Shown one piece after another: positions 1-1,516 of a stretch of 55,870 nt of DNA (within the stretch, counting starts at the first letter, position 1; each line of letters begins with the position of its first letter). The notes beneath the pieces are model-generated. The model worked only from the letters and a program-made list of their open reading frames with translations, did no database searches and had not been told where the DNA came from. The DNA comes from an uncultured Chlorobiaceae bacterium (GTDB lineage: Bacteria > Bacteroidota > Chlorobiia > Chlorobiales > Chlorobiaceae), in the NCBI GenBank assembly GCA_903843305.1, contig CAIMPI010000003.1:1-55870 (forward strand), written 5' to 3'. The position numbers and the translations under genes were made by a program.

Positions 1-1
1 C

Positions 2-730
2 TGGAACAATGCGCCGAAACTGTCCAGCGTTTTCGCCATGGAGCAGACTGACAACTGTCCCCATGTATTCGGAATCGGTACAGATAATACCCTGTATCTG
101 AATTGGCGGAACAAATCAGGCCAGTGGAGCGGTTGGATGGCGAACTGGAACAATGCGCCGAAACTGTCCAGCGTTTTTGCCATGGAGCAGACTGACAACT
201 GTCCCCATGTATTCGGAATCGGTACTGATCATACCCTGTATCTGAATTGGCGGAATCCATCAGGCCAGTGGAGCGGTTGGATGGCGAACTGGAACAATGC
301 GCCGAAACTGTCGAGCGTTTTTGCTATGGAGCAGACTGACAACTGTCCCCATTTATTCGGAATCGGTACAGATAATACTCTGTGTCTGAATTGGCGGAAC
401 TCATCAGGCCAGTGGAGCGGTTGGATGGCGAACTGGAACAATGCGCCGAAACTGTCGAGCGTTTTCGCCATGGAGCAGACTGACAACTGTCCCCATGTAT
501 TCGGAATCGGTACTGATCATACCCTGTATCTGAATTGGCGGAACTCATCAGGCCAGTGGAGCGGTTGGATGGCGAACTGGAACAATGCGCCGAAACTGTC
601 GAGCGTTTTCGCCATGGAGCAGACTGACAACTGTCCGCACATATTCGGAATCGGTACAGATAATACTCTGTATCTGAATTGGCGGAACAAATCAGGCCAG
701 TGGAGCGGTTGGATGGCGAACTGGGCCTAA
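2..730 (+). CDS. Tandem-repeat beta-propeller-like protein (PLL lectin-type repeats), 5' partial
   Basis: The reading frame is open from the window edge, so the gene starts upstream; 242 residues are visible. They consist of the tail of one 48-residue unit, five further units starting at 38, 182, 326, 470 and 614, and a final truncated unit ending GWMANWA. Each unit carries FGIGTD, LNWRN and GQWSGW. This spacing of aromatic residues resembles the blade repeats of PLL/PHL-type seven-bladed propeller lectins, so sugar binding is possible but unproven. Units are nearly identical at DNA level, with N/H alternating at one position (GTDN, GTDH, GTDN, GTDH, GTDN). No signal peptide can be judged because the N-terminus is missing. 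The fold assignment is inference from motif spacing only. Confidence 0.7.
   Translation, partial: WNNAPKLSSVFAMEQTDNCPHVFGIGTDNTLYLNWRNKSGQWSGWMANWNNAPKLSSVFAMEQTDNCPHVFGIGTDHTLYLNWRNPSGQWSGWMANWNNAPKLSSVFAMEQTDNCPHLFGIGTDNTLCLNWRNSSGQWSGWMANWNNAPKLSSVFAMEQTDNCPHVFGIGTDHTLYLNWRNSSGQWSGWMANWNNAPKLSSVFAMEQTDNCPHIFGIGTDNTLYLNWRNKSGQWSGWMANWA
38..720 (+). repeat. Tandem 144-bp coding repeats
   Basis: Copies begin at 38, 182, 326, 470 and 614, exactly 144 bp apart. The end of an earlier copy occupies the first 37 bases. Copies differ at only a few bases. Units 1, 3 and 5 read acagataatac at the variable site and units 2 and 4 read actgatcatac, which implies a 288-bp higher-order unit. Confidence 0.95.
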
Positions 731-1080: not shown

Positions 1081-1312
1081 TTAATCTGATGACAATAGCG
1101 GTTTACAGTTACGCATTAAAACAAGAAGTACACATTTTTCCGGTATATTTCCCCCGAAAGCGGGGTGCCGACTTCGGCTCAACAAAATAGTACAATGAAA
1201 GCACTGCTCAGCTATGTGTGGCAGAACAGAAATTGCTCAGGTTTTTTATTCTTCAGAAATATTGGTGGACGAATTCAAAAATGGGCGATGCGCTTCAGAA
1301 TAAAGGCTTGCT

Positions 1313-1516
1313 ATGAAATTAAAAATTATTGTACATCCGGCAGAAGAGGGTGGCTTTTGGGCCGAAGTGCCTGCAATTCAGGGTTGCGCCACTCAAGGTG
1401 AGACGATGGAGGAACTTCTGGTGAATCTGCGCGATGCTGTAGATACCTGCCTTTCAGTGGATTTGGAAACCATCGAAATTTCAGAAAATGACAAAGTTTT
1501 AGAACTTGTGCTGTGA
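1313..1516 (+). CDS. HicB-like antitoxin (UPF0150/HicB_like fold)
   Basis: This is a 67-aa protein beginning MKLKIIVHPAEEGGFWAEVP. It has the HicB_like pattern: a beta strand, then EGGFWAEVPAIQGC, then a helix (EELLVNLRDAVDTCL). HicB proteins of this type normally neutralise a HicA mRNA interferase. The TGA stop overlaps a GTG that starts a hicA-like sequence, giving the usual translational coupling of a hicBA pair. Here hicA is destroyed after about 15 codons (next entry), so this copy is probably an orphan. Length and fold match small HicB family members without the C-terminal DNA-binding domain. Confidence 0.7.
   Translation: MKLKIIVHPAEEGGFWAEVPAIQGCATQGETMEELLVNLRDAVDTCLSVDLETIEISENDKVLELVL

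Follow-up and report, generated by a model that had tools for sequence, protein, structure and literature searches.

In the PLL/PHL lectins of Photorhabdus, the hydrophobic (fucose) pocket of PHL is formed by a Thr and two Trp residues, and PHL also has a polar (galactose) pocket of Arg, Glu and Trp, which some sites of the PLL family lack (PMC5584973). Near-identical propeller blades are already well known: in the survey of Pereira and Lupas (PMC9218822), half of whose sequences are WD40 and whose main text does not name the PLL lectins, highly repetitive propellers often exceed the median blade number of their family, and a two-blade fragment is reported as the origin of one propeller only. 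Given that this is the single reported case of its kind, any claim that blades were amplified in pairs matters.

Here we describe the 3′ part of a gene at the edge of a 55,870-nt stretch of DNA (hereafter the window), which is a whole contig (C3) of the 2.59-Mb, 99.9%-complete genome of a green sulfur bacterium; the same genome encodes the FMO protein (PF02327). We consider it probable that window positions 2–730 encode the propeller at the C-terminus of a protein with two domains, putatively a lectin joined to a protease-like domain, whose blades were copied singly or homogenised.

The blade array, its fold and its pockets

The open frame at 2–730 (+ strand; 242 aa) enters from the window edge and contains five PLL-type beta-propeller blades at the C-terminal end of the protein, as read from the frame itself, TRF and phmmer. 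TRF reports a period of 144, 5.0 copies and 94% matches at 1–724, and the five tandem 144-bp units, which lie in frame with phased starts at 35, 179, 323, 467 and 611, form an array that is far beyond chance expectation. The tail of a preceding blade (1–34) is followed by blades W1 (35–178; Asn type), W2 (179–322; His type), W3 (323–466; Asn type, with Tyr changed to Cys at a pocket position), W4 (467–610; His type, with three differences from W2) and W5 (611–730; Asn type, the final blade, ending ...GWMANWA-stop), all on the + strand. In residues, the unit reads AMEQTDNCPHVFGIGTD[N/H]TLYLNWRN[K/P/S]SGQWSGWMANWNNAPKLSSVF. A sequence-only reading of this DNA had described five near-identical 144-bp units in which one site alternates between aca-gataat and act-gatcat (Asn/His), and this description is confirmed for window 2–730.

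The window starts within the array, where the contig itself begins, and the truncation is an effect of the contig boundary rather than a biological feature. A search of the same genome turned up a unit in just one other place, where contig C38 ends; this contig terminates in 55 nt that are identical to window 1–55. A shared end of 55 nt is the overlap expected between neighbouring contigs in a k = 55 assembly. The C38 frame (L006:14428–15324) is a 299-aa open reading frame that consists of an N-terminal domain of ~245 aa and then one Asn-type blade. This upstream sequence brings the count of visible blades to six across the two contigs (five in the window and one on C38), with pairwise identities of 92–98% among the window units and the C38 unit over the 114 comparable bases.

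Searched with phmmer against the PDB, the window protein matched PHL (E 6.8e-24), PLL2 (E 7.1e-23) and further Photorhabdus PLL lectins. Against the NCBIfam model beta_propeller_lectin (NF052348), the partial window protein reached 86 bits (E 2.2e-24) and its complete relative 72 bits, both below the 200-bit cut-off, so the window protein is not filed as a member. Pfam matches of the repeat region to MMS21_N, TSP_3, PDE6_gamma and others fell below cut-off and were rejected as repeat-driven. One close relative was found in a genome collection of 84,980 species, a protein from a Bacteroidales metagenome-assembled genome (L003) with 74% amino acid identity, which has seven blades at exact 48-aa spacing on a single contig; in this protein (L003:3841–5841) the propeller is N-terminal and is followed by a domain of ~320 aa that has no Pfam match and carries Cys-/His-rich motifs. 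Phages, viral contigs and 60 related genomes held no relative of the repeat region, and no second strain carrying the gene was found.

AlphaFold (AF2) models, the alignments behind which consisted of two sequences only, gave a pLDDT of 78 for the L003 propeller, for which the best Foldseek matches were all PHL/PLL (TM ~0.8 over about 345 residues), and a pLDDT of 81 for the window part, for which the best matches were likewise PHL/PLL. The sequence-only reading had suggested a propeller fold with a lectin-like pattern and had named structure prediction as a check; the check came out in its favour, and the sequence matches to PHL/PLL point the same way. The view that the five repeats are blades of a PLL/PHL-type, lectin-like propeller is thus supported at the level of predicted structure.

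Pocket residues were read by alignment to PHL, with sites as described previously (PMC5584973). No visible blade of the window protein has lost the Thr or the second Trp of the fucose pocket, and the first Trp is replaced by Tyr (by Cys in W3). At the galactose pocket, Arg is replaced by Cys and Glu by His in every blade of both proteins, with Trp kept, and all of these blades read N-C-P-H where PHL has G-R-L-E. Given the missing pocket Trp and the missing Arg and Glu, sugar binding is not assured, and the loss of the latter two (which are not a strict family requirement) makes the protein PLL-like rather than a full PLL/PHL member. The propeller could even have lost sugar binding altogether and bind metal, or act as a scaffold only, through Cys and His at the former galactose site, as the N-C-P-H replacement in every blade of both proteins and the persistence of the Cys/His pair in the subfamily would allow; however, the fucose-type Thr and second Trp are retained throughout the visible window-protein blades, and we regard such a loss as unlikely. 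In the same alignment, the site that alternates between Asn and His falls two residues beyond the Thr of the fucose pocket, and the difference could tune the predicted fucose pocket.

Age and unit of the blade copying

The diverged, seven-bladed L003 relative allows a blade-by-blade comparison. Within the window protein, pS between blades averages 0.15; the corresponding means are 0.80 for the blades of L003 and 0.98 between the two proteins, with a pN/pS of 0.21, and mean blade identity in DNA is 95% in the window protein versus 76% in L003. In a tree, the window blades group apart from the L003 blades, from which they are separated by 11 fixed DNA differences. These values, the separate grouping and the fixed differences together indicate that the blades were amplified or homogenised after the split of the two proteins and under purifying selection, which bears out the earlier claim that this happened recently. 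Pereira and Lupas count consecutive blades with a median identity of >60% as highly repetitive, and the DNA mean of 95% places the window protein well within that range.

A further claim of the sequence-only reading, that the units were amplified as pairs with a 288-bp periodicity, is not supported. The alternating bases (82/86, 226/230, 370/374, 514/518 and 658/662) are A/A, T/C, A/A, T/C and A/A, so that W1–W5 read Asn-His-Asn-His-Asn; at a spacing of 4 bp the two bases amount to a single character, and a random ordering of three Asn and two His blades would alternate with a probability of 1/10. Mean differences are 6.75 at lag 1 versus 5.0 at lag 2 (permutation p = 0.22), and when the two bases are masked the values become 4.75 versus 5.0 (p = 0.6) and the period-2 signal is gone, in tests that cover five or six blades and have little power. 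W1/W3 and W3/W5 are no closer than neighbouring blades, and the K/P/S codon together with sites 135 and 144 groups adjacent blades, against the alternation; the variable sites outside the two alternating bases group either adjacent blades or still other combinations. Eight site pairs are mutually incompatible among the blades, the outcome predicted if blades exchange sequence by conversion or unequal crossing-over (a few of the pairs could be due to recurrent mutation). The L003 relative reads N-S-N-N-N-N-N at the same site, with no alternation.

If the blade pair (288 bp) were nevertheless the amplification unit, giving N(HN)3 over seven blades, this would accommodate the alternation of the two linked bases through five window blades, the closeness of W2 and W4 (3/144 bases) and the Asn of the upstream C38 blade, given that one missing His blade would complete N-H-N-H-N-H-N; with no unit missing, the order would be N-N-H-N-H-N and the alternation would be broken. 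Set against the chance of the observed order, the lag distances before and after masking, the sites that group neighbours and the relative that does not alternate, amplification by pairs seems to us quite unlikely. Less likely still is the fuller scenario of a bacterial PLL-type propeller built from a two-blade unit, with alternating Asn/His pocket loops and Cys/His at the former galactose sites, whose multivalent ring directs a cysteine protease to its target; if true, its two-blade origin would be the second case beside the one already reported (PMC9218822).

Blade-by-blade amplification with mosaic homogenisation fits better than two-blade amplification. We suggest that single blades were copied in turn, or that unequal crossing-over or gene conversion homogenised them time and again, a history that would produce mosaic units whose differences fit no one tree; the Asn/His alternation would then represent one tract common to W2 and W4 and not a repeat unit of two blades.

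Ring size, N-terminal domain and genomic setting

A contig break inside a repeat suggests that the assembler met more than one path and that one or more units are probably missing. As the closest relative has exactly seven blades and PLL family structures have seven, we infer that the full ring has seven blades, one of which was lost at the break. An array longer than one ring (that is, eight or more blades, or two rings), with many units hidden by the break, would agree with contigs that end inside the repeat at a 55-nt shared end and with the tendency of highly repetitive propellers to exceed their family median (PMC9218822); the seven blades of L003 and of the family structures make it quite improbable. 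Units do occur at two contig ends, but that C38 and the window carry different genes, from two separate array copies, is highly improbable: an N-terminus is present only on the C38 side and a C-terminus only on the window side, the two 55-nt ends are a perfect match, a congener (G013) has the flanking genes in the same order, and the 99.9%-complete genome yielded no array ends beyond these two. The case is also a caution that repeat number in such genes is not readable from short-read assemblies.

In G013, the NAD(P)H dehydrogenase-like gene that lies upstream (−) and the peptidase gene that lies downstream (+) occur in this order on one contig, 13 kb apart, which supports the junction of C38 with the window; the G013 interval between these two anchors holds other genes (including methylase- and helicase-like genes) and is thus variable. 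The interval from the dehydrogenase-like gene to the peptidase gene (L006:13264 to window 2652; L038) may be an insertion hot spot. Two copies of a direct repeat of ~200 bp, at C38:13301–13498 (L006:13301–13498) and at window 1107–1304 (+; 188/198 identical), flank the lectin gene on either side and may mark how the gene was inserted. Pieces of this repeat are present elsewhere in the genus. At window 1313–1516 there is a HicB/UPF0150-like small open reading frame (just below Pfam cut-offs), followed by a possible HicA-like frame.

The N-terminal domain shows the papain-like motifs GDCVTAEEA, DHCVSLCGYG and TW, and we infer from these that it is a papain-like cysteine peptidase; no significant papain-family match was obtained in Pfam, NCBIfam or PDB, so the protease label rests on the motifs. 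Weak PDB matches to photosystem I were judged spurious, and searches of 295 further genomes from the phylum, of plasmids and of phages returned no relatives of the domain. The surface or secreted location suggested by the sequence-only reading found no support: no signal peptide is apparent by eye at the N-terminus of either the window protein or the Bacteroidales relative. A small open reading frame just upstream (L002:481–699) and the start of the lectin protein (L002:769–830) share the N-terminal motif PKRGA[IF]P[ST]P[RK], which is possibly a shared targeting or leader sequence.

Comparison with known propellers

Similar to the Photorhabdus PLL/PHL lectins (PDB 5MXE, 6RFZ and 8Q83; PMC5584973, PMC6943638), the window protein has four-stranded blades of ~48 aa with the fucose-pocket Thr and second Trp, and their seven-bladed fold is seen in the L003 relative. 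It differs in its 24–29% identity in structural alignments, in having Tyr for the first pocket Trp and Cys/His for Arg/Glu, in its fused N-terminal domain, and in blades that are ~95% identical in DNA. With recently amplified propellers, for example WRAP of Nostoc (PMC9218822, PMC6805158), it shares near-identical blade DNA and blades that cluster by protein, not by position; unlike those (PMC9218822), its blades are mosaic. The 47-blade NACHT propeller of Penicillium camemberti (CRL31138.1; PMC9218822) resembles it in the claimed two-blade periodicity, yet the two-blade fragments there have a median identity of 100%, whereas in the window protein only two bases alternate.

Protease fusions to PLL-like propellers occur elsewhere. 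A Nocardia plasmid protein (WP_331764087.1; L033) joins a papain-like (C70) domain to such a propeller, although its peptidase is C-terminal, its blades are of 52 aa and identity is 27%; one pair of its blades shows 100% DNA identity over the 126 bases compared and another two blades show 98%, indicating that the same recent copying occurs elsewhere in the PLL-like lineage. In a congener (G266; L008:799–2955), a canonical PLL-type propeller of seven blades is fused to a C13-like peptidase whose match falls just short of the Pfam cut-off, and a Paenibacillus plasmid carries an annotated matrixin joined to a PLL-like propeller. On the basis of these fusions, the best reading of the window protein, as judged from sequence, is a putative glycan-targeted cysteine protease, in which the propeller would act as a multivalent sugar-binding module with pockets between its blades and would bring the N-terminal catalytic domain to a glycan target.

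Two features are mildly new, the replacement of the galactose-site Arg and Glu by Cys and His throughout the blades and the joining of the propeller to a protease-like domain, and together they suggest a distinct subfamily. As a freshly homogenised case from the PLL lineage, the array is further evidence that blade amplification continues to build propellers; measured against the propellers already described, it is an ordinary, well-formed case in which a known process has acted on an unusual protein.
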